From a virus, in the IMG/VR virus record IMGVR_UViG_3300036795_000133, positions 1 through 64,000 of that record: DNA of 64,000 nucleotides. One strand, given 5' to 3'. The notes under the pieces are model-generated. The model made no database searches. It saw nothing but the letters and a program-made list of their open reading frames with translations, and was not told the DNA's origin. This document shows positions 6,936 through 63,997 of the stretch, one piece after another. A program made the translations under genes and the position numbers. Positions within the stretch are counted from its first letter, which is position 1. Each line of letters opens with the position of its first letter.

Positions 6936-7852
6936 AGAAGTCCATCCGCATCCTCGCACTCGCGCTTCCCGCCGCAGCGGCGGCACTCGGGCTGTCCGCC
7001 TGCTCGCACGCCACGCCGGCGCTCTCCCAGTGCGAGATGACCACGAACGGCGGGTTCGGCAGCAACGGGCAGGGCATCACGAACATCGTCCACCCGGGAG
7101 GCCGGGTGTCGATCGGCAACGGCGAGACAGCGTGGTACTTCCCGTGCAACGCGCGGAACTTCGTGACCGCCGCGTCGGGCGGCGACCGGAACAACCCCCT
7201 CGCCGTCCGCACGGCCGCGGCTAACGGCACGCCGGGCATGCCGGTGCACGTCTGGACGCGCGTGTTCTTCACCGCGAACCAGGACGAGCCGGTGATGAAG
7301 CAGTTCCTGCCGTTCTGCCTGAAGTACGGGTGCGCGACTAACAACTCGCAAACCGACGCGTCGATCTCCGGCAGCGCGCACTCCTCGGAGCCCGGCTGGG
7401 AGAACATGCTCACCGAGAACATGGGGCCTGCCATCGACAGCGCAACCGAGGACTCGATCAGCGCCTTCGGGCCGACGCTCTGGCAGGACCAGTCCCAGTG
7501 GAGCGCGCTCGGCAACGACATCGCCAGCCACCTTGACGCCGAGCTGAGCAAGGAGACCGGCTCGGCCTCGCCGTTCTTCTGCGGTGATGCCAGCACCGAG
7601 TCCAAGTGCGACGCGATGACCGTCGTGGTCTACAACGTCACGCCGGTGGACCAGGCCGTCGTCAACGAGTACAACCAGCAGGTGGCGGCAGAGCAGTCCG
7701 GTGCGGCTAACGCCGCGCGGCTGAAGGCGGCCGAGGCGCTGTACGGGCCTTACGCCCAGTACTTCCTCGGCATCATGGACGCCTCCAGTAACTGCCCGAA
7801 GTGCACGTTCTACGTCGGCGCGCCGAGCGGTATCCCCACCTCCGGCAAGTAG
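6932..7852 (+). CDS. SPFH/band-7-like lipoprotein
   Basis: 306 aa. N-terminal signal with lipobox: basic VKKS, a hydrophobic Ala/Leu stretch, then LSAC (lipidation Cys ~24). The body resembles the SPFH-like membrane proteins of actinophages: a beta-rich first half, then VVVYNVTPVDQAVV and an Ala/Glu-rich helix (NEYNQQVAAEQSGAANAARL) running to YGPYAQYFLG. The C-terminus has a CPKC pair. It should be anchored on the outer face of the membrane, where it could act in superinfection exclusion; this role is inferred. GTG at 6932 overlaps the preceding stop. Confidence 0.6.
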   Translation: MKKSIRILALALPAAAAALGLSACSHATPALSQCEMTTNGGFGSNGQGITNIVHPGGRVSIGNGETAWYFPCNARNFVTAASGGDRNNPLAVRTAAANGTPGMPVHVWTRVFFTANQDEPVMKQFLPFCLKYGCATNNSQTDASISGSAHSSEPGWENMLTENMGPAIDSATEDSISAFGPTLWQDQSQWSALGNDIASHLDAELSKETGSASPFFCGDASTESKCDAMTVVVYNVTPVDQAVVNEYNQQVAAEQSGAANAARLKAAEALYGPYAQYFLGIMDASSNCPKCTFYVGAPSGIPTSGK

Positions 7853-7881
7853 CCCCGGCGTCCTGAATCTACCCCGACTGT

Positions 7882-7910
7882 CCCTGCCCGCATCCCCGGT
7901 GCGGGCAGGG
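7882..7910 (+). terminator. strong hairpin after the lipoprotein gene
   Basis: Perfect 11-bp stem (CCCTGCCCGCA at 7882-7892, TGCGGGCAGGG at 7900-7910) with a 7-nt loop, 29 nt after the lipoprotein stop. No T run follows, as is usual for actinomycete hairpin terminators. It marks an operon break before the DUF397 gene. Confidence 0.6.
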
Positions 7911-7936
7911 GGGCGGTAACCCTGAGAGGAAGAAAA

Positions 7937-8173
7937 GTGATGCAAGGCAACTGGCGTAAATCTAAGCTCAGTTTCGCGAACGGGAACTGCGTCGAGGTCG
8001 GCGAGGACTGGCGCAAGTCCTCCCGCTCGGAGTCCGGCCAGTGCGTGGAAGCGGGCACCGCCCCTGCTGCCGTCCTGGTCCGTGACACCACTGACCGTAC
8101 CGGCCCCGTCCTATCCTTCCCCGCGGGTGCGTGGGCGGCGTTCACGGCGAGGACCGCGGGGAGCGGGTCATGA
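7937..8173 (+). CDS. DUF397 protein with duplicated N-terminal motif
   Basis: 78 aa. The DUF397 signature is present: DWRKSSRSESGQCVEAG, then VLVRDTTDRTGPVLSF and WAAF. A partial second copy, NWRKSKLSFANGNCVEVG, precedes it, so the first half of the domain is duplicated. In actinomycetes such proteins are usually encoded beside XRE regulators and help control development or antibiotic production. An XRE gene lies at 21123, not adjacent. GTG at 7937 or ATG at 7940 follow AGAGGAAG. Confidence 0.75.
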   Translation: MMQGNWRKSKLSFANGNCVEVGEDWRKSSRSESGQCVEAGTAPAAVLVRDTTDRTGPVLSFPAGAWAAFTARTAGSGS

Positions 8174-18061: not shown

Positions 18062-18282
18062 CGGTCAAACCGCGGCTCCGCGACCGCATGCGCTCTTACC
18101 TCCTCGGTGCCGCTTCTCTCTTCGACCTGTCCGGCGCACTGACCTACCGGGAGGCGCGAAGGGACATGCCCCCCGCCGATGACTGGAAGGCTGTCGGGGA
18201 GTACTTCGGCGAGGCCGGGAGGCTTATCCGCCAGGCGATGGACGATGCCGGGATTCCTGACGGCGAAGAGGAGAAGCGCTAA
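18058..18282 (+). CDS. hypothetical protein
   Basis: 74 aa. Basic N-terminus (KPRLRDRMRSYLLG) and helix EYFGEAGRLIRQAMDDAG. Directly precedes rtcB with a 1-nt overlap, so it is cotranscribed with the RNA-repair genes. Function unknown. Confidence 0.5.
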   Translation: MTVKPRLRDRMRSYLLGAASLFDLSGALTYREARRDMPPADDWKAVGEYFGEAGRLIRQAMDDAGIPDGEEEKR

Positions 18283-19481
18283 TGGAGATGCTGGGCAAGA
18301 AGCTGTTCAACTGGGCGTCGATCCTTGAGGCGAACACCCTCGAGCAGGCGGAGAAGACCGCGTCGATGCCGTTCATCTGGCCGCACCTGGCGCTCATGCC
18401 GGACGCGCACCTCGGAAAAGGTTCTACGGTCGGGTCGGTCGTCCCCACGCTCGGCGCGATCATGCCCGCTTGCGTCGGAGTGGACATAGGCTGCGGGATG
18501 ATGGCCGTGCGCACGCAGTTCACCGCGGGCGACATGCGCCGCGGGAATCTCGCGGCGCTCCGGGAGTCGATCGAGCGGGCTATCCCGCTTTCGGCAGGCA
18601 ACTACAACGCCGAGGTCTATGACGATGAGACCAACCGCCGGGTCGGCGAACTGTTCCTGACGGACGGCGAGCAGGCCGCGGGGGCGGTCGCGCCCAACTG
18701 GAACCTTCAGCTCGGCTCGCTTGGCAGCGGCAATCACTTCATCGAGATCAGCCTCGACGAGCTTGACCAGGTATGGCTGTTCCTCCACTCGGGCTCGCGC
18801 GGCGTCGGCAACAAGCTGGCGAACAAGCACATCAAGATCGCGCGGGAGCAGTGCGAGCGGTGGTGGGTCAGTCTCCCGGACCCTGATCTCGCCTACCTCG
18901 TCGAAGGTGAGCCGGAGTTCTGGGACTATATGCGCGACCTGCGGTGGGCGCAGAAGTTCGCGTTCCTCAACCGCGAGGAGATGATGGACCGCGTTATTGG
19001 CTGCGTGGGCAAGTGGGCAGGCGAGCCCGTCATCGAGCAGGAGTCCGTCAACTGCCACCACAACTACACCGAGCAGATGACCGGCGACCTGCTCGCCAAG
19101 TGGAAGCGGCCGAAGGGACGCAGCGGTCACGTCTGGCTGTCCCGCAAGGGCGCGATCGACGCCACCGCAGGCCGGCCGGGCCTGATTCCCGGGTCAATGG
19201 GAACTGCCTCATACGTCGTCACCGGACTCGGCAACCCGCTGTCGCTGAACTCCTCCCCGCACGGCGCTGGCCGTGAATACAGCCGGTCGGCAGCCCGCAA
19301 GACATTCACCCGCGCGCAGCTTGACGAGGCAATGGAGGGCATCGAGTGGGGCCGGTCGGACGCCTTCCTCGACGAGATCCCCGGTGCCTACAAGGACGTG
19401 GACGTTGTGATGGCCGACGCCGCGGACCTCGTGAAGGTCGAGCACACGCTGCACCAGATCGTCAACGTGAAGGGGGACTGA
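18282..19481 (+). CDS. rtcB: RtcB RNA ligase
   Basis: 399 aa, full length. RtcB joins RNA 2',3'-cyclic phosphate or 3'-phosphate ends to 5'-OH ends using GTP and Mn2+. All hallmarks are present: MPDAHLGKGSTVGSV, VGVDIGCGM (metal Cys), LGSLGSGNHFIE, HSGSRGVG, SVNCHHNY (metal His), RKGAIDA, PGSMGTASYVV, SSPHGAGR (the His that is guanylylated) and C-terminal HTLHQIVNVKGD. No frame break or missing catalytic residue. It is followed directly by a phosphoesterase and an RlaP-like nucleotidyltransferase, forming an RNA-repair set, probably against host tRNA- or rRNA-cutting defences. Confidence 0.95.
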   Translation: MEMLGKKLFNWASILEANTLEQAEKTASMPFIWPHLALMPDAHLGKGSTVGSVVPTLGAIMPACVGVDIGCGMMAVRTQFTAGDMRRGNLAALRESIERAIPLSAGNYNAEVYDDETNRRVGELFLTDGEQAAGAVAPNWNLQLGSLGSGNHFIEISLDELDQVWLFLHSGSRGVGNKLANKHIKIAREQCERWWVSLPDPDLAYLVEGEPEFWDYMRDLRWAQKFAFLNREEMMDRVIGCVGKWAGEPVIEQESVNCHHNYTEQMTGDLLAKWKRPKGRSGHVWLSRKGAIDATAGRPGLIPGSMGTASYVVTGLGNPLSLNSSPHGAGREYSRSAARKTFTRAQLDEAMEGIEWGRSDAFLDEIPGAYKDVDVVMADAADLVKVEHTLHQIVNVKGD

Positions 19482-21771: not shown

Positions 21772-22145
21772 CCGAAACCGAGGACCTCCCCCCGACACAG
21801 GCCCTCGTCCTCGAGGTACTGGCTTCCCGCCATCGCCTCGGCGAGACGCACTGGACGTTCTCCACCCGGCACCTGACCGCACTCCGGGCCCTGGAGAAGC
21901 GGGGGCTCGTCGGCCTGATGCACGGGAATGTCGCGCGCACCTGCCGCGCGTACCTCACCGACTCCGGGCGTAAAGCCGCGCTCAGCGAGACGTACGAGGG
22001 CCCGTGCTGCTTCACCCGAGACTCGCTCGTTGACGCACTGACCCGCCTTGAGATCAAGGTCCAGCTGACCGGGCCGGCCGCGGGGATGATCAACGCCGAG
22101 TCGATGGCCGATGCGATTATCGAGGCGCTGGGTCAAGGCGGCTAG
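21768..22145 (+). CDS. winged-helix protein
   Basis: 125 aa. Winged-helix pattern: TQALVLEVLASRHRLGE, STRHLTALRALEKRGLVGL, then YLTDSGRKAAL, like phage and MarR-like DNA-binding domains. The last rightward gene before the attachment region; its TAG and the stop of the opposite gene share the CTAG at 22142-22145. Confidence 0.55.
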   Translation: MTETEDLPPTQALVLEVLASRHRLGETHWTFSTRHLTALRALEKRGLVGLMHGNVARTCRAYLTDSGRKAALSETYEGPCCFTRDSLVDALTRLEIKVQLTGPAAGMINAESMADAIIEALGQGG

Positions 22146-22312
22146 ACCGAGGACTGAAAAGCGCCGGCCCGCATCCCGTCCACCAGGGGATCAGGCAGTG
22201 CCCTCCCAATCACCTTCCCCAGCACGTCCAGGCCCAGGGCAGGCATTTCGGCTAGCGGGATGTCCCCCAGGCCGGCTGCCGGGGATTCGACGGCGAGGAT
22301 GTCAGAGGTCAC
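22142..22312 (-). CDS. candidate FxSxx-COOH RiPP precursor peptide
   Basis: 56 aa. The C-terminus is AGAFQSSV, i.e. F-x-S-x-x ending the chain, the hallmark of the FxSxx-COOH family of ribosomal peptides modified by radical SAM/SPASM enzymes in actinomycetes. The leader (GDIPLAEMPALGLD then GRALPD) has the hydrophobic and acidic pattern of that family. No radical SAM gene is in the window, so a host enzyme would be needed. GTG at 22312 lies 6 nt after TACTCT, so the mRNA is probably leaderless. It sits beside attP, where bacteriophages often carry lysogenic cargo. Family call is by eye only. Confidence 0.55.
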   Translation of the reverse strand: MTSDILAVESPAAGLGDIPLAEMPALGLDVLGKVIGRALPDPLVDGMRAGAFQSSV

Positions 22313-22378
22313 GACCCGAGAGTACCGCCCCTCCTGCTGCCAGCGTGGGACATGACGCCCGCGGGTACGGTGCCGTGC
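22313..22378. promoter_or_regulatory. divergent leaderless promoters
   Basis: Leftward: -10 TACTCT (minus strand, 22324 to 22319), 6 nt before GTG 22312. Rightward: -10 TACGGT (22366-22371), 7 nt before ATG 22379. Neither gene has a ribosome-binding site, matching leaderless transcripts. The two genes probably have expression of their own, independent of the long rightward chain. Confidence 0.4.
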
Positions 22379-22642
22379 ATGCCGCCGCGTGACCCCCGTC
22401 TCTGCCCCGCGCTCGAGCGCGCCCTGCCGGCCGACTCCCCCGGCCGCGATCCCGGCTACCGCTCCGACCAGTCGCCGTGGCGGTTCCTCTTCGGCGATAA
22501 GGAGTGGCACCCGGTGTCAGTCCGCGCGTGGTGGACCGACCGGCGCGGACGCGGGGTTGTTCAGATTGAGTGGCATATCGACGGCAGCACATGGGACGAG
22601 TCGTACATAGTCGACCACGCTCGAATGCGAGAGGTCGGTTAG
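22379..22642 (+). CDS. hypothetical protein beside attP
   Basis: 87 aa. Beta-rich body: WRFLFGDKEWHPVSVRAWW, VVQIEWHIDGSTWDESYIVD, rich in Trp. ATG 22379 fits the leaderless promoter; ATG 22352 is an alternative. Divergent partner of the FxSxx candidate, so the two may be functionally linked, but no family is recognised. Confidence 0.5.
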   Translation: MPPRDPRLCPALERALPADSPGRDPGYRSDQSPWRFLFGDKEWHPVSVRAWWTDRRGRGVVQIEWHIDGSTWDESYIVDHARMREVG

Positions 22643-22947
22643 GCGCGGCATGCACGCACATGGCACGCACGCGAGTCCCGTCTCATTCCGGCGAGTTCCG
22701 ATGCATCCCGGTAGATCAAAATCTCTCTGACCAGCCTGTTCACGGTTGTCCGTCGCATCGCGGCCCATCACGGCGAATAAGACAGGACACTGCTAATGCG
22801 GTTTGGGAGTGATCCCATCCGGGGTTCAAATCCCCGATCCTCCGCCCAAGTGAATGCCGGTTTCCGGTGAAAATTTCGATCCGCACACCCCGCCCGGTTT
22901 GTCATGATTTGACCCCCGCGCACGCACGCGGCACGCACGCAGATTTT
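22643..22947. other. phage attachment region (attP) with arm repeats
   Basis: 305 nt without a gene. The core is a tRNA-Ser 3' part (22789-22844). GGCACGCACGC occurs at 22662-22672 on the left and 22930-22940 on the right, each with a close neighbour (GGCATGCACGCA at 22648-22659; GCACGCACGCG at 22920-22930). This layout, paired repeats on both sides of the core next to an integrase gene, is that of tyrosine-integrase arm sites. Confidence 0.7.
22789..22844 (+). other. attP core: 3' part of tRNA-Ser(GCU)
   Basis: Anticodon loop CTGCTAA (22790-22796, anticodon GCT), variable arm TGGGAGTGATCCCA, T arm CGGGG-TTCAAAT-CCCCG and acceptor 3' strand ATCCTCC with discriminator G at 22844. The 5' half (GGAGGAT, D arm, 5' anticodon strand) is absent upstream, so this is not a functional tRNA but the stretch of identity used for integration into a host serine tRNA gene. 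Confidence 0.8.
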
Positions 22948-24420
22948 TCACGGGCCCTCTTCCGCCTTCGCCGGCCGCTTGCGCGGGACGACCGCGGCGG
23001 CGGCATCGGAGGCCGCCTGCTCGATCTCAGGGAAGAGCGTCACGTACGCGGAGTCGGTGAACGACGTCTTGTTGTGACCCAGGATCGCGGAGATGACCTT
23101 CGTGTCAACGCCGGCCGCCTTCAGCAGTGACGCGGTGCCGTGCCTCAGGTCGTGGAACCGGACCGGCGGCATGCCCGAGCGGAAGGCGAGGATCTCGAAC
23201 CGGGTACTCGTCCACTGCGGCGGAACCGGCGACCCGTCCTCCCGGGTGAACACGAGGTCATTGTCCGGCCAGTCCGGGCCCCACACGAGCTGGTCGAACT
23301 CCTGCCGTTCCTTCCACGTGCCCAGCGACATCACAACAGGGGGAGGGAGGGGCACGGCGCGGATGCCCTTCTTCGACTTCGGCCCGCTCCCGGAGCCCGT
23401 CTCCCGGACATACGCAACCCTGTTGACCAGGTCGATCTCAGACCACTTGAGGCCGAGGATCTCGTCGCGCCGGAACCCGCAGTACGCTGCCAGGATGAAC
23501 AGGGGCGCCAGCCGCTCGGACAGAGTGTCGAGGTAGTCGAGGAATTCCCCGGTGTGCGCGGGCATCCACACCATGACCGGGCACGGCCGCAGGTCCCCCG
23601 CGTACCACAGGATCTGGCGCTCGACTGTCGTCAGCACGCGGCCCTCCGCCTGCGCCGCACCCTCCGCCTTGCCCGTGCGCCTGGCGAGCGCCGCGCGGAA
23701 CTTCGCCTCGCGTGCCGGGGTCCATGCCAGGGGCTTAACCTCGTCGGCGGCAGGCGGCTCGACGCCGAGGCACGGACTCACGTCGATCTTCTTCGTCTTC
23801 ACCGCGGCGTTCATCGCGGCCCGGAACGGGGCGAAGATCCGCGTCACCCGCGCGGCGGACAGTGGCTTGGTCGACTTCTTGTGCCGGGCTTCCCCCTCGG
23901 GCAGCTTGCGGCGCACGTCGTCGGCGCGGGCCGCGAGCATGCGGCGCAGCATCTCCGACGGCGGCTCGCCGTCCTCGGCCGGCCGGTTGACGCGGAGCAT
24001 CTCAGTGATCACGGCCGACACGTGGCTGTCGCGGACGTCGACCAGGCGCATCTTGCCGAGAGCGGGTATCCAGTACAGGCGGAACGCATCGGCGTCGGTC
24101 TCGCGCGAGGACTCCTTCATCTTCCGCTTCCCCGCCAGGTAGGTCTCCAGGTAGGCGGCGACGCGGAGGTTCCGGTCGCGGGTGGCCGCCCCGCCGCCTT
24201 CCCTGGCGATCGCCGCGGCGAGCTCCTCCTCGGCGTCGGTCTTCTTCTCGAACGGGCCGAGGATCGGCTGGCGCCGTTCCTCGGTGGCGGAGTCGTAGCG
24301 GGCGTACCACTTCCCGTGTGCCCGCTGCTTCAGCTTCGGGCACGGGTTGTCTCTAAGCGTGTAGGGCTTCTTCGTCTCCGGGTCGCGGCACCAGCAGCGC
24401 CGGTAGACGGTGCCCCTCAC
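22948..24420 (-). CDS. int: tyrosine-type integrase
   Basis: 490 aa. Integrates and, with a helper, excises the phage at the tRNA-Ser site. Catalytic residues are in the usual order: Arg in CGFRRDEILGLKW, HDLRH (His-x-x-Arg), LGHNKTSFTDSAYVTLF (His and the nucleophilic Tyr). The N-terminus has a Cys/basic arm-binding domain (RRCWCRDPETKKPY) and a core-binding domain around residues 85-300. It is long for the family because of a 190-260 insertion-like region. It reads toward attP and overlaps the repressor gene upstream by 4 nt. Confidence 0.95.
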   Translation of the reverse strand: MRGTVYRRCWCRDPETKKPYTLRDNPCPKLKQRAHGKWYARYDSATEERRQPILGPFEKKTDAEEELAAAIAREGGGAATRDRNLRVAAYLETYLAGKRKMKESSRETDADAFRLYWIPALGKMRLVDVRDSHVSAVITEMLRVNRPAEDGEPPSEMLRRMLAARADDVRRKLPEGEARHKKSTKPLSAARVTRIFAPFRAAMNAAVKTKKIDVSPCLGVEPPAADEVKPLAWTPAREAKFRAALARRTGKAEGAAQAEGRVLTTVERQILWYAGDLRPCPVMVWMPAHTGEFLDYLDTLSERLAPLFILAAYCGFRRDEILGLKWSEIDLVNRVAYVRETGSGSGPKSKKGIRAVPLPPPVVMSLGTWKERQEFDQLVWGPDWPDNDLVFTREDGSPVPPQWTSTRFEILAFRSGMPPVRFHDLRHGTASLLKAAGVDTKVISAILGHNKTSFTDSAYVTLFPEIEQAASDAAAAVVPRKRPAKAEEGP

Positions 24421-25064
24421 GGCTTCCGCTCCCGAAGCGCCCGCTCGAGCGCGTCTTGCAGCATGGCGTTCTCCTCCAGTAGCGCGCCGAGCACGGGGTA
24501 GATGGCGTGGACCGCGGCGAAGTTCGCGCGGGCCCCTTCGAGTGCGGCCTTAAGGCTCTCGTCGGCGGCGAGGCCGGCGAGCGACGCGGCGAGGTCTTCA
24601 ACGGCCTCTTCCCCGTCCGCGTACTTCGCTGTCGCGGTGATGACAGCCTGCCGGTAGGCGACTGCTGCCGGCGTGGCTGGTTCCCAGTCGGGCTCGGGCA
24701 TGAGGAACCAGAAGTAGTCGCTCATGGGCAGCGCATCGCCGTCACTGCGGATGACGTACCGGGCGGCCTCGCCGTCGTCGGCGGGCGGGAGGAAGAAGGC
24801 GGGGACCGGGACGCCGAATATAGAGGCCATGCTCGCGATCTCGTCGGCATCGAACTTGCGCACGCGGTTGCCGTCCCAGGACCGCTCGGCGGCGGAGACC
24901 GCGCCCTTGGTCCAGCCGCCGAGTTCCTCGCCTAGCGCGGCCTGGGTCATCCCGCACGCCTGCCGCCACCGGGCCATGTTGTAGGCGACGAGCATGTTAG
25001 CGGTGACCTCCCGCTCGGGAGGTGCCGCCTTCCGGTCGCCTGAGGTGTCGTCCACGGTGCCCAC
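24417..25064 (-). CDS. XRE-type phage repressor
   Basis: 215 aa. N-terminal XRE helix-turn-helix (residues ~25-95: NMARWRQACGMTQAALGEEL, GGWTKGAVSAAERSW, IASMASIFGVPVPAFFLPP). The C-terminal part is helical and may dimerise; no LexA-type Ser/Lys protease motif is seen. Shares its stop with the integrase start, so repressor and integrase are expressed together. It is divergent from the excisionase-like gene across an operator-rich region. Best candidate for the immunity repressor. Confidence 0.8.
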   Translation of the reverse strand: MGTVDDTSGDRKAAPPEREVTANMLVAYNMARWRQACGMTQAALGEELGGWTKGAVSAAERSWDGNRVRKFDADEIASMASIFGVPVPAFFLPPADDGEAARYVIRSDGDALPMSDYFWFLMPEPDWEPATPAAVAYRQAVITATAKYADGEEAVEDLAASLAGLAADESLKAALEGARANFAAVHAIYPVLGALLEENAMLQDALERALRERKP

Positions 25065-29408: not shown

Positions 29409-29771
29409 GTGCGGGGATGGCGGCGGCTGGCTGTCCTGCTGGCCGCCGCCGCGTTCGGAGCATGGCCGCTGACTCAGGGAGACCTGGATGTTGCCCTGGT
29501 GTTCTGGGGCGTTATGGGCCTAGGGGCGGTGTACGCGGGGGTAGTGATGGCCAGGGTGAGGCGGGGTGGCGGGAGGCGTCAGAACGCTGACAGCACGCCC
29601 GCAAATTTCTCCGGTGATTCGGGGTTCCCGACGACCCGCCCCCAAACGTCGTACTGCTGCCCGGCTGTCAGCGTCACTACCCCGCCGCCAGGACCGACTA
29701 GGCACTGGGAGACGAAGCCTCTCCCGGTCCCGCCGAGCAGCCAGGACGCCGCGAACCAGGTCACAGGCTGA
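29409..29771 (+). CDS. two-TM membrane protein, tail overlaps late gene
   Basis: 120 aa. Two membrane helices (LAVLLAAAAFGAWPL and VALVFWGVMGLGAVYAGVVM). The rest of the frame (residues ~58-120) runs 193 nt into the convergent tail gene and looks like a shadow of it. The functional protein may effectively be the first 60 residues; GTG start at 29409. Candidate holin-like protein by topology only. Confidence 0.4.
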   Translation: MRGWRRLAVLLAAAAFGAWPLTQGDLDVALVFWGVMGLGAVYAGVVMARVRRGGGRRQNADSTPANFSGDSGFPTTRPQTSYCCPAVSVTTPPPGPTRHWETKPLPVPPSSQDAANQVTG

Positions 29772-31858
29772 GCGGGCTCGGCGTAGTTCCCGCTGGTCGG
29801 TGGAAACGCGAAGTACACGGGAAGCTGAGGCTGGCCCGTAGTCTGTCCGGTCGGGTCGACCGATGTCCCGTCAAGGTCGGAGAGCCACAGGACGTTGACG
29901 CACTCCAGGCTTACCGCTGCTATCGGGCTGAACAGGGGCAACGAGAGCCTCCCTCTCGGGGTGCACGTCCACCGGGGAGCGCACGGGGTAACGGACCAGG
30001 CAACTGACGGCTCGGTAACCGGCGTGATGACCTGCGCGGACACGGTGAGCGTGCCGAGTCCGCCCAGGACTGCGGCGGCGGCGACCGTGAGGAACAGCCC
30101 TGCCGTCATGACGCCGGCACCGGACAGCGCCGCGCCGGTCGGCGACGCGACTGTGACGGCAGCCGCGATCGTCCCCGTGCCTGCTAGCGCGGCCGATGCG
30201 GGCAGTGTCACGGTGACCGCTGACAGCAGGAGCCCGGTACCGCTGAGCGCCGCAGCCGCGGGGACAGCGACGAGGGCCGCGGCCGTTACGGTGCCTGAGC
30301 CCGAGAGGGCGGCGGCTTGCGCGAGCACGAGGGAAGCGGCTGCGGCAATCGCCCCGGACCCGGAGAGGGCGGCACTGCCCTGCGCTAGGCCGGAGACAGT
30401 GCCCACGGCCGTCAGCGTCCCCGACCCGTCGAGCGCGGCCGAAGAGGTGAACTGAACGACCGCGCCGACGGTGAGCGTCCCCGACCCGGACAGGGCCGCC
30501 CCGGGTTCCATTGCCGGCATCGCCATGATGGCGGCCAGGGCGTCACTCACCCAGTCGTCATGCCAGGCGTGGCTGGCGTCAAGCGTGTCGTGGGCGCCGT
30601 TGAACAGGATTCCGGCCGAGGCCAGCCGCGTCATGTAGGCGCTCACGTCGGCCTGGAAGCTGTAGTAGCCGCCGACCCACAGCCGTGCTTCGGTGGTAAA
30701 GCTGCCGCCGGGTGCCCATGACGCCAGGTGGGCGGACGTCAGCTCGTAGTTGGTGGTGAAGTTCGCGCTGGTGCCGTAGCAGTCCTCCGGGTCACCGCCC
30801 ACCGCCGACCCGTAGGTGGGGTCGGTGCCGTCGTAGTCCGTCATCATGAACGGGGCGTCCCAGGACGCGCACGCCGCCCACACGTCCGGCCGGCGGAACT
30901 GGAGCCCCTGCCCGCCGATGCCGCTCTTGGAGAAGCCGATCAGGTAGTTCTTCTCCCCGCCGCTCGCGAACGAGGAAGTCGACATCCACGCCGCGAGGGC
31001 GAGCATGAACGACTCCTGCGACTGCTGGGTGTTCCCGGGATTGTCCGCGTACCACGGCTGAATGGGGAACGAGGGGACCACGGCGGTCGTGTTGTAGGCG
31101 TTGCACGCGCCGAGGTCCTCCATGACGGTCAGCGGGTCGCCGAACGTCGCGTCCGTACCCGTGGAAACCGGCAGCATGAACAGGAAAGAGTGCGCGTAGG
31201 AGCCGGAGCCGGAGGTCGGCGGGAGAATCCGCAGGGTGCTCGCCGACGGGCCGTTGAGGGCACTGGTGGCGGTCCACGTCTGCACCCCGTTCCCGTCGGT
31301 GCTCACGAACGTGGCCTCGAACGCAGGAGGAGTCTCGCTGACCTCGACGTCGATCCACCAGTTGGCGCCGTCGAACAGCGTGGCCGGGAACGCGAGAGAC
31401 GACCCGAGGTTGTACCAGCCCTGGCTGCCCGCGCCCCCTGGCGCGGTGAGCGCCCCGGAGGTGACGCCGCCCGAGCCCGCCCCGGTAGTCCAGTACGCGG
31501 CGTCGTACAGGTACCAGTCGGAGCCGGCGGCGGCGCCGTTGAGAACGGCGGCCATGTAAGCCGTGCCGGAAGACAGTGACGGCGGGGAGGTGAACGCGGC
31601 CCGCACCCAGCCGGATTCGGCCGCCCCGGACCATGATGCGGACTCCGAGTGGACTAGTACCTGGTCATCCGCCGTGAACAGGGCGATCACCTGCGGAAGG
31701 CCGTCCGCGTCATCCTGGCCGAACGCGCCGCTGTAGAACCTGACGGCACCCAGCTGCGCCGGCACCGACACGCTGACCTTGACGCCGAGCGTGGCATCCT
31801 GGGCCGTCCCGCCGCCGTTTCCCGCGACGGTGCCGTCACTGAAGAGGGTATCCGTCAT
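29579..31858 (-). CDS. tail protein with DUF4082-like, esterase-like and repeat domains
   Basis: 759 aa. Residues 1-180 resemble DUF4082 (LGAVRFYSGAFG, SGTAYMAAVLNG): a beta-sandwich of surface proteins. Residues ~200-455 look like an alpha/beta hydrolase: GFSKSGIGGQG (nucleophile Ser) and a late HDTLDASHAWHDDW, an esterase fold. Residues ~460-615 hold seven or more repeats like ALSGSGTLT. The C-terminus (~620-759) is a beta domain. Probably a receptor-binding or envelope-degrading tail tip protein; last gene of the leftward late operon. Confidence 0.6.
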   Translation of the reverse strand: MTDTLFSDGTVAGNGGGTAQDATLGVKVSVSVPAQLGAVRFYSGAFGQDDADGLPQVIALFTADDQVLVHSESASWSGAAESGWVRAAFTSPPSLSSGTAYMAAVLNGAAAGSDWYLYDAAYWTTGAGSGGVTSGALTAPGGAGSQGWYNLGSSLAFPATLFDGANWWIDVEVSETPPAFEATFVSTDGNGVQTWTATSALNGPSASTLRILPPTSGSGSYAHSFLFMLPVSTGTDATFGDPLTVMEDLGACNAYNTTAVVPSFPIQPWYADNPGNTQQSQESFMLALAAWMSTSSFASGGEKNYLIGFSKSGIGGQGLQFRRPDVWAACASWDAPFMMTDYDGTDPTYGSAVGGDPEDCYGTSANFTTNYELTSAHLASWAPGGSFTTEARLWVGGYYSFQADVSAYMTRLASAGILFNGAHDTLDASHAWHDDWVSDALAAIMAMPAMEPGAALSGSGTLTVGAVVQFTSSAALDGSGTLTAVGTVSGLAQGSAALSGSGAIAAAASLVLAQAAALSGSGTVTAAALVAVPAAAALSGTGLLLSAVTVTLPASAALAGTGTIAAAVTVASPTGAALSGAGVMTAGLFLTVAAAAVLGGLGTLTVSAQVITPVTEPSVAWSVTPCAPRWTCTPRGRLSLPLFSPIAAVSLECVNVLWLSDLDGTSVDPTGQTTGQPQLPVYFAFPPTSGNYAEPAQPVTWFAASWLLGGTGRGFVSQCLVGPGGGVVTLTAGQQYDVWGRVVGNPESPEKFAGVLSAF

Positions 31859-57653: not shown

Positions 57654-58565
57654 TTAAACGCCGCTGAGCAGTGCGATTGCCAACGGCTGGTCGAGCCCTA
57701 CGGCACTTGATCGCTGTGTGTCACTACGCCAGACCTTTTTTGATTCTTCTCTATATAGAGGTCCGGCTATGAAGGGAAGCTCATCGGCATAGAAGCCGGC
57801 CCGGTGCCGCTGCATGACGATCGCGTTACCTGCGGGCACCTGGCGCGAGACGAGCACGTCAAGGTTGAAGATCTTGTTCGGGAGAACCCCGGTGTACTGG
57901 AGGTTCTCCGAGGCGATGTCACCGATGTACGGCGCGGCGAAGGTGCTCGACTGCAGCAGCGTGTTCTTCGTCCCGTGGTTGATGATCAGCGTGTCGGCTT
58001 CAAAGCCGAGCCACTGCGTCACGCCGGATGGGGAGACGATATTCGCGTTCTCAACCAGGTACACGGCCTGCGCGAGGTCCGACCGGGTCGTCGCCGAAGC
58101 CGACGCCCAGGGATTCGCGACGGCCAGCGTCTGAATTGACGCGTTGGCCACGACGGCGCTGTAGAACGCGGTGTTCCACGAGTAGACCATCGTGTTCTTG
58201 ACCTGCAGCAGCTGCCGGGTCACGGGGTCGATGGCCTGCCGGCGCCGCATCTCGTCGCTGACCATGATCGCCATGGCTCGCTCGTGGCTGAACACGACCC
58301 GCGGCACGCCGATGGACGTCGGGACGACCGGGACCTCGCCGAACTCCGGCCGGATCTCCGGGAAGTCGTCGGCGTACAGCGGCGTGCTCTCCGAGTACCG
58401 CACGGCGCCGGAGGGAGCCGCCCCGCCCATCCGCAGGACGGAGTCCATGATGAACTCGTTCTGCGTGATGTCCAAAATCAAGGCGGGAATGACCAGCGGG
58501 TCCTTGAGGAGCTCGCTTACGGTAAGCCGCGGGGAATCGGAGTAACCCCGTGCGCCAGTGGGCAT
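57654..58565 (-). CDS. major capsid protein (HK97 fold)
   Basis: 303 aa. Capsid-type pattern: N-arm, then VPVVPTSIGVPRVVFSHE (spine-like segment), DEMRRRQAIDPVTRQLLQVKN (alpha), and GNAIVMQRHRAGFYADELPF / GLDQPLAIALLSGV (A-domain and C-terminus). Placed after protease-scaffold and decoration genes. Length is at the compact end for the fold. Confidence 0.8.
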   Translation of the reverse strand: MPTGARGYSDSPRLTVSELLKDPLVIPALILDITQNEFIMDSVLRMGGAAPSGAVRYSESTPLYADDFPEIRPEFGEVPVVPTSIGVPRVVFSHERAMAIMVSDEMRRRQAIDPVTRQLLQVKNTMVYSWNTAFYSAVVANASIQTLAVANPWASASATTRSDLAQAVYLVENANIVSPSGVTQWLGFEADTLIINHGTKNTLLQSSTFAAPYIGDIASENLQYTGVLPNKIFNLDVLVSRQVPAGNAIVMQRHRAGFYADELPFIAGPLYREESKKVWRSDTQRSSAVGLDQPLAIALLSGV

Positions 58566-62672: not shown

Positions 62673-63179
62673 ATGGATAACGGCGCGCAAACTACCTGTC
62701 ACACTCGCGGCGAGACCCGCGTCCGCTGGCGCAAACGGGAAGACGGCCTGGAGGAGTGCGTCCAGTTCGTCCCCGGCTACAACTGCCCCGAGCCCGGCGG
62801 GCACGGCCACGGCGTGCACAGCATGGAGGTCCGCTGGTTCCTGCGCGGCCCGGACGGCGCGGTCGTGCTCTCAATGGCCACGGACTTCGTCCCCGGCGAG
62901 CGCAGGCCCGGTCACGGCCTGTCTCCGAGCGGCCTGAACGAGAACTGGGCACACTACCCGAGTGGTTTCGGGCTCCAGTACCACTCCCGCGCCCCGCGCT
63001 ACGAGGGACATGACGCTGAGGACGGCTGCGATCTTCTCGGCGGCCCGTGCTACTGCGACATGTGGCTTAGCGGCGCGGATGAGCCCGTGAAGCGCTTCAC
63101 CGGCGAGGGTGAGCAGGTCATCTGGGACGCGCTGGAAGAGGCGTACGCAAGCCTTGCGGCGGAGACCTCGCGCTCCTAG
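62673..63179 (+). CDS. plus-strand hypothetical protein in the late region
   Basis: 168 aa. TCHTRGETRVRWRKREDG, YNCPEPGGHGHGVHSMEVRW, DGCDLLGGPCYCDMW: several Cys and His that could bind metal. Its own promoter and opposite orientation suggest cargo expressed outside the late programme. It overlaps the stop of the convergent gene by 4 nt. Conserved-looking, but no family recognised. Confidence 0.5.
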   Translation: MDNGAQTTCHTRGETRVRWRKREDGLEECVQFVPGYNCPEPGGHGHGVHSMEVRWFLRGPDGAVVLSMATDFVPGERRPGHGLSPSGLNENWAHYPSGFGLQYHSRAPRYEGHDAEDGCDLLGGPCYCDMWLSGADEPVKRFTGEGEQVIWDALEEAYASLAAETSRS

Positions 63180-63997
63180 AGCATCTGCCCGGTGATCGTG
63201 CCCTCGTTAGCCATCTGCGCGCTGACCGTGCCCTTCGAGTACCGCGCGTGCTGCTTCCCGCCGTCCCCGGCGTCCGCGGTGACCTCGTCCAGCCCGTTGA
63301 GCCACTTCGCCTCGGCCGGGTAGTTGTCGCGGAGGTGCTGCCTGAGCTTCCCCGCGTGCTCCACCGCCCCGCCGAGGTGCTTCTCCGCGTGATCGGCGTT
63401 AAAGCTCCACTCGGTGGTCCCGGTACCCTCCGTCAAGGCCTGGGCGTGCCGGCCGGCGTGGGCGAGCTCGTGCAGCGTCGTTTCGAGCAGGTGCGCTGTC
63501 GTGGCCGCCTTGGCGTCCTCGCTGACCGCCTTCGCCAGCCCGAGCACCTGCGCGCTGACTGTGCCGACGTTGGCCAGCCCTGCCGCATTGCCCCCGAGAG
63601 GGAACCGCACAGCCTCGTCATCGCCCCGGTGCACCGTCAGGTGAGTGAACGTGACCGGCGTTGCGGGCACCGGGGCGGGAAGGGCCTCACCGGGCTCCAC
63701 GTACGACATGGTGACGTGCGGCTTCCAGTCTTTATGCTCGCTGGCGGACAGGTCTTCCAGGCTGCTGCGGAGCCGCTCCGCGCCGGGCAGCACGACGCCG
63801 GCCCACGCGGGCACCTTCCCGTCGCTGCCGTCTGACGGCGGGAAGGTGCCGATGCCGCCGACGGTTCCCGAGAGCGGGCCGGGCATCGCCGCCGCTGCGG
63901 CCTTCGCCCGGTCGCACGCCTGCGCGAATGCCTTGTCGTCCACGTCCGGGCCGAGGTAGACAACCGTGACGTGGTGATCCTGTACGCCACCCGGCAC
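63176..63997 (-). CDS. 2H-phosphoesterase domain protein (N-terminus outside window)
   Basis: At least 273 aa; the frame runs off the right edge, so the start is unknown. Two HxT motifs, HHVTVVYLG and KPHVTMSYV, about 85 residues apart, mark a 2H phosphoesterase (LigT-like) domain, as often fused to actinophage head proteins. Then helical region with LLETTLHELAHAGRH and a HEKHLGG-like C-terminal part. Cuts cyclic phosphates or 2'-5' bonds in RNA-like substrates; here the target is unknown. Confidence 0.65.
   Translation of the reverse strand: MPGGVQDHHVTVVYLGPDVDDKAFAQACDRAKAAAAAMPGPLSGTVGGIGTFPPSDGSDGKVPAWAGVVLPGAERLRSSLEDLSASEHKDWKPHVTMSYVEPGEALPAPVPATPVTFTHLTVHRGDDEAVRFPLGGNAAGLANVGTVSAQVLGLAKAVSEDAKAATTAHLLETTLHELAHAGRHAQALTEGTGTTEWSFNADHAEKHLGGAVEHAGKLRQHLRDNYPAEAKWLNGLDEVTADAGDGGKQHARYSKGTVSAQMANEGTITGQML

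Follow-up and report, generated by a model that had tools for sequence, protein, structure and literature searches.

FxSxx peptide systems are widespread in actinomycetes, and MscB is a member of the FxsB enzyme family that serves them. MscB joins Phe C4 to Ser Cβ at positions i and i+2 (PMC11002830), and NCBIfam names describe FxsB-type enzymes as cyclophane-forming. Kaur et al. (2020; PMC7159879) predicted FxSxx systems to be NTP-dependent conflict systems whose effectors are TIR and AP-ATPase/TPR proteins, and for the peptide they suggested the part of a toxin or of an amplifying signal. In the open-license papers searched, we found neither a biological role for any FxSxx system nor a report of phage-borne FxSxx precursors. 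The gene analyzed here is a real, selected FxSxx precursor gene that is carried by a phage without a maturase and recurs in other phages.

The window, the whole 64,000-nucleotide stretch that was analyzed, is part of a 124,995-bp IMG/VR record, which is marked as a phage by a major head protein gene (57654–58565, minus strand; phrog_1650, E 1e-67). The preliminary description had claimed an ORF at 22142–22312 without giving its strand. It is present on the minus strand, where an orphan FxsA-like gene for 56 amino acids runs from a GTG start at 22312 to 22142 and encodes VTSDILAVESPAAGLGDIPLAEMPALGLDVLGKVIGRALPDPLVDGMRAGAFQSSV, ending in FQSSV-COOH. The FQSSV codons (22145–22159, minus strand) are the predicted site of a Phe(i)–Ser(i+2) cross-link, judged by the sequence, the aligned members and the reported chemistry (PMC11002830); F.S[AS][IVLM] or a close variant forms the C terminus of the aligned cellular and phage members. 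A longer GTG start at 22510 was dropped; the additional stretch overlaps a gene on the other strand, and the homologs begin near 22312.

That gene, ORF96 (22352–22642, plus strand), is the divergent neighbor of the peptide gene and is kept beside FxsA in three related phages; its homologs in phages L005 and L125 are 58% and 47% identical, respectively. No Pfam, PHROG or known-phage match was obtained for ORF96, which is a possible partner or co-mobile gene of FxsA. Next come attP (22788–22847), a tyrosine integrase gene (22948–24420, minus strand; PF00589, E 2e-21), whose product is 69% and 61% identical to its homologs in L005 and L004, and the gene for an HTH protein (24417–25064, minus strand). 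The latter is a probable repressor (weak matches to PF13560/PF01381 and to PHROG transcription regulation; 61% identical in L005). Read in the direction of the integrase, the order is repressor, integrase, attP, ORF96 (on the opposite strand) and peptide gene. The peptide gene had been described as lying beside attP and opposite to the long operon. Its start codon is indeed near attP (about 475 bp), but the conserved ORF96 intervenes, and the gene does oppose the long plus-strand operon, yet it shares its strand with the integrase and the HTH repressor.

Other parts of the window have features of separate interest. An RtcB-type RNA ligase gene (18282–19481, plus strand), with a DNA match of about 100 bp to RtcB genes of Caulobacter phages (83–85%), is a phage RNA-repair gene. 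A second ORF (63176–63997, minus strand) has a weak PHROG "RNA ligase" match (PHROGs 14859 and 2659); the same PHROGs also match the C-terminal part of a portal fusion in phage L124 (L129:4796–9337), so this label may mislead. A 759-amino-acid protein with many degenerate AALSGSGTL repeats (29579–31858, minus strand) is likely a tail or surface protein.

The published precursor profile, TIGR04268, gave a divided answer to the profile check proposed in the preliminary description: the window ORF aligned over model positions 2–44 of 44, but its 16.9 bits fell below the cut-off of 28. Since an unrelated frame with stops gave an equal score in a six-frame search of the phage, TIGR04268 alone was not taken as proof. 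The cut-off is a detection threshold and not a biological trait, and it is too strict for this subfamily, because the precursor that lies next to FxsB in an actinobacterial MAG also scores under it (24.7 bits). The FxsAs of Trebonia kvetii and of MAG contig C249 gave no TIGR04268 match, a short ORF of L005 scored 21.3 bits, and the peptide of L124 cleared the cut-off with 28.7 bits. A further profile rests on 13 cellular FxsAs and excludes the MAG peptide and every phage peptide; FxsB is found no farther than about 1.5 kb from 11 of the 13. The members had been gathered by similarity to the MAG peptide, and the profile is thus independent of the phage sequences, although not of that host sequence. 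With it, the window ORF ranked first among the 1,781 ORF tails of its own phage (E 7e-8; the next, 0.21), and the other three phage peptides gave E values of 3e-14, 2e-11 and 2e-5. An initial profile, drawn mostly from another FxsA subfamily, gave poor separation of the phage peptide. Four of the 1,781 tails end in F.S.., and F.S.[VILM] occurs in this ORF only. The window peptide is 62% identical over 50 amino acids to the FxsB-adjacent FxsA of the MAG; the T. kvetii FxsA is unlike it and shares general similarity only. The C terminus, the homology of leader and middle to FxsB-adjacent precursors and the profile rank bear out the original reading of the ORF as an FxSxx-type precursor.

FxSxx precursors were found in three more IMG/VR phages (L005, L124 and L125). 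The resulting four contigs among 2.9 million are a lower bound, because the viral searches used short exact patterns. Every phage copy keeps FQSS[IV] or FNSSI. The conservation of the C terminus, on which the preliminary description had staked its claim, is seen as FQSSI in L005, L125 and the MAG and as FNSSI in L124. In L005, a short ORF (7807–7941) ending in CFQSSI follows attP on the integrase strand. The 18-kb phage L125 is related to that of the window (its flanking proteins are 90%, 78% and 87% identical) and has a different integrase. Its peptide is 64% identical to that of the window, and the divergent spacing is unchanged, with the peptide starting 39 bp from the ORF96 homolog. L124, at 113 kb, is a distinct phage that encodes portal and head proteins, and its peptide is MAPAAVIGTALPDLRSVPLGDFPSLSDDVLDEALRRLVVPQPVPVAAFNSSI. 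L004, which has the same attP as the window phage, shows no such peptide. When 50,697 phages and 72,556 plasmids were searched by tblastn, neither the window peptide nor a cellular subfamily member gave a real match. A pattern search of viral contigs with the leader and FQSS returned L005 again and two other contigs, in which the motif is not encoded. Prophages with related integrases in genomes G113 and G227 had no FxsA within the stretch examined.

The peptide gene evolves under constraint, with dN/dS of about 0.2 (0.21–0.25) in the window–MAG, window–L125 and MAG–L125 comparisons (44–50 codons). It is preceded by a −10-like box, TACTCT (22319–22324, minus strand), 6 nt before the GTG. A TANNNT box lies 6–7 nt before the start in all three related phages (TACTCT, TAGGAT and TAGCAT), and only two of the 367 window ORFs of at least 60 amino acids have one at that spacing. 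The box supports the leaderless promoter that had been proposed for this gene; the L124 gene has a Shine-Dalgarno-like GAGGAG instead. Between the window and L125, dS is 0.99 for the peptide gene and 0.81 for ORF96 against 0.34–0.60 for the flanking genes, values from few codons that hint at exchange of the pair between phages. A tree of 50 columns, with few resolved forks, groups the window, L125 and L005 peptides with the MAG precursor (94/94) and joins L124 to an FxsA that lies next to FxsB in another genome (95/86). Because the phage peptides fall with different cellular FxsAs, the tree needs at least two origins for phage FxSxx precursors.

FxsB was not detected in the record of any of the four FxsA-carrying phages, and those of the window phage, L005 and L004 are devoid of radical SAM domains altogether. 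Across 124.0 of the 125.0 kb of the window's phage, there was also no match to FxsC or to the TPR protein. The precursor stands alone in its phage, as the preliminary description had said.

The phage is a temperate virus of soil actinomycetes, with presumptive hosts assigned from the tRNA attB. The attP is the 3′ half of tRNA-Ser(GCU), and its 60 bp are identical to the tRNA gene of T. kvetii (Treboniaceae, Streptosporangiales); an Rfam match over it (RF04351, below the gathering score) is accounted for by the tRNA half. The exact 57-bp attB core was found in just two genomes of a GTDB-based collection, T. kvetii and the actinobacterial MAG; among 347 genomes from the order, again no others have it. 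Genome G113 has a related integrase (55% identical) next to a tRNA-Ser(GCU) half (L122:12555–12642), so it appears that this integrase family also targets the site in other actinomycetes. FxsB scores above the cut-off in both exact-attB genomes, which answers the question of whether the presumptive hosts carry an FxsB-type maturase. In T. kvetii, FxsA, FxsB, FxsC and FxSxx_TPR are all present. In the MAG, the gene for the precursor MVPTEELRPAFPSAMADLRDIPLAEMPALSLDQLGRVLGRVLPGPVANPMPSGAFQSSI immediately precedes FxsB (552 bits; cut-off 370); after FxsB come FxsC with its TIR domain (209 and 112 bits; cut-offs 130 and 55) and the FxSxx TPR protein, which scores 1012 bits against a cut-off of 300. 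The host TPR protein has a MinD/ParA-like N terminus; PADLOC gave weak, partial matches to the host partners. Of 201 genomes sampled from the order, 132 have FxsB, so its possession by a host is weak, at best modest, evidence. Stronger evidence is that one of the two exact-attB genomes contains the nearest cellular relative of the phage peptide.

Genes for AAC(3)-like aminoglycoside acetyltransferase homologs, which score below resistance cut-offs, directly follow FxsB in T. kvetii (L047:7844–8770, minus strand) and at a second FxsA/FxsB locus of the MAG (L046:1255–2157, minus strand); their products perhaps tailor the peptide further in the FxSxx pathway. Cellular orphan FxsAs also exist. Two lie in tandem at L100:6900–7505 (plus strand), ending in VAAFHSSI and VAAFNSSI, on a 17-kb cellular contig that has a transposase gene a few kb away and no FxsB. 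A prophage context for the orphans of two cellular genomes, L100 and L101, was considered and rejected: L100 holds the transposase and cellular genes, and L101 a degenerate piece of FxsB.

The account that we favor, and hold to be somewhat probable, is that the phage FxsA is matured by the host FxsB in the lysogen and modulates the host FxSxx/TIR/TPR system. The phage gene is a copy of an actinobacterial FxsA from a subfamily in which the maturase, FxsB, has a fused HExxH domain and FxsC (TIR) and the FxSxx TPR protein are the partners. A lysogen would transcribe the gene from its own leaderless-type promoter. Host FxsB would then recognize the peptide through the conserved D-[IV]-P-L-[AS]-E leader and cross-link Phe52 to Ser54. 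Maturation by a host enzyme is the simplest reading, because the phage peptide keeps both the F-x-S and the leader motif. Once matured, the peptide could join or compete with the host FxSxx peptide, and the output of the host conflict system may shift in favor of the prophage. Since the phage brings only the substrate, it would act on that system either as a competitor, in counter-defense, or as an extra signal that protects the lysogen, and in this sense might rewire a host RiPP system, as had been suggested. More tentatively, we envisage counter-defense by means of the defense's own enzyme: host FxsB would finish a viral peptide that jams or retunes TIR/TPR immunity.

A narrower form of the favored account, which covers infection as well as lysogeny, is that the phage FxsA acts as a decoy, matured or not, and occupies FxsB or the peptide receptor to block the TIR/TPR effectors. 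The TIR and TPR/STAND-like nature of the host partners, the prediction that FxSxx systems are conflict systems (PMC7159879) and the faster divergence of FxsA/ORF96 than of the flanks, as expected of an exchanged, host-tracking module, all agree with it. However, selection on the gene is purifying and not diversifying, the lysogeny-type promoter fits lysogenic better than early lytic use, and the papers searched contained no demonstrated anti-phage FxSxx activity; we regard the decoy as rather doubtful. Alternatively, the phage gene could benefit the lysogen, with added dosage or a new variant strengthening the host FxSxx pathway, for example, against superinfecting phages or competitors. A leaderless promoter, a position one gene from attP and a shared strand with the integrase and repressor are typical traits of lysogenic conversion, and Streptomyces has known intracellular anti-phage lanthipeptides (reviewed in PMC12360287). 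We know of no FxSxx product with activity, though, and consider this alternative unlikely.

It is more improbable still that the gene is a passenger, a host FxsA caught by imprecise excision or recombination and functionless in the phage. Cellular FxsAs without FxsB exist, one locus near a transposase, so an orphan may be a relic; in addition, only four phage contigs were found. Against this, three related phages keep the promoter box and the C terminus, dN/dS of about 0.2 argues against decay of the phage copies, and the tree calls for at least two origins in phages. A chance ORF that happens to end in FxSxx would suit the sub-cut-off TIGR04268 score and its equal in a junk frame, but the homologs refute it, and with the selection and profile rank they leave it a negligible probability.

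Maturation of the phage precursor by the host would be an uncommon case in which a virus feeds a host RiPP pathway with its substrate and nothing else. The precursor stands alone in phages, more than once and under selection, and the presumptive hosts encode the maturase next to TIR and TPR proteins; this points to a part for FxSxx in phage–host conflict, which one small gene and a lysogen make testable.

The phage peptide resembles the precursors of the triceptides (radical SAM three-residue cyclophanes) in having F-x-S at i and i+2 (PMC11002830), but the phage has no maturase and its cross-link is predicted from sequence. The host locus matches the stand-alone peptide systems of Kaur et al. 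(PMC7159879) in its FxsA, radical SAM/SPASM enzyme, TIR and TPR proteins, whereas the phage has the peptide gene only. In length and C terminus, the phage peptide is like the FxsAs that occur with FxsB (TIGR04269), FxsC (NF040588/TIGR04276) and FxSxx_TPR (NF040586), and it has in common with FxSxx precursors (TIGR04268) the D-[IV]-P-L leader motif and the GRxLPxP middle. Cellular FxsA lies directly before fxsB, whereas the phage copy sits on a temperate phage without FxsB, FxsC or the TPR protein, behind a leaderless-type promoter. Prophage bacteriocins with complete clusters, such as sublancin of SPbeta, are likewise cases of a modified-peptide gene on a temperate phage; their phages, however, bring the modifying enzymes, whereas the window phage brings the precursor only.
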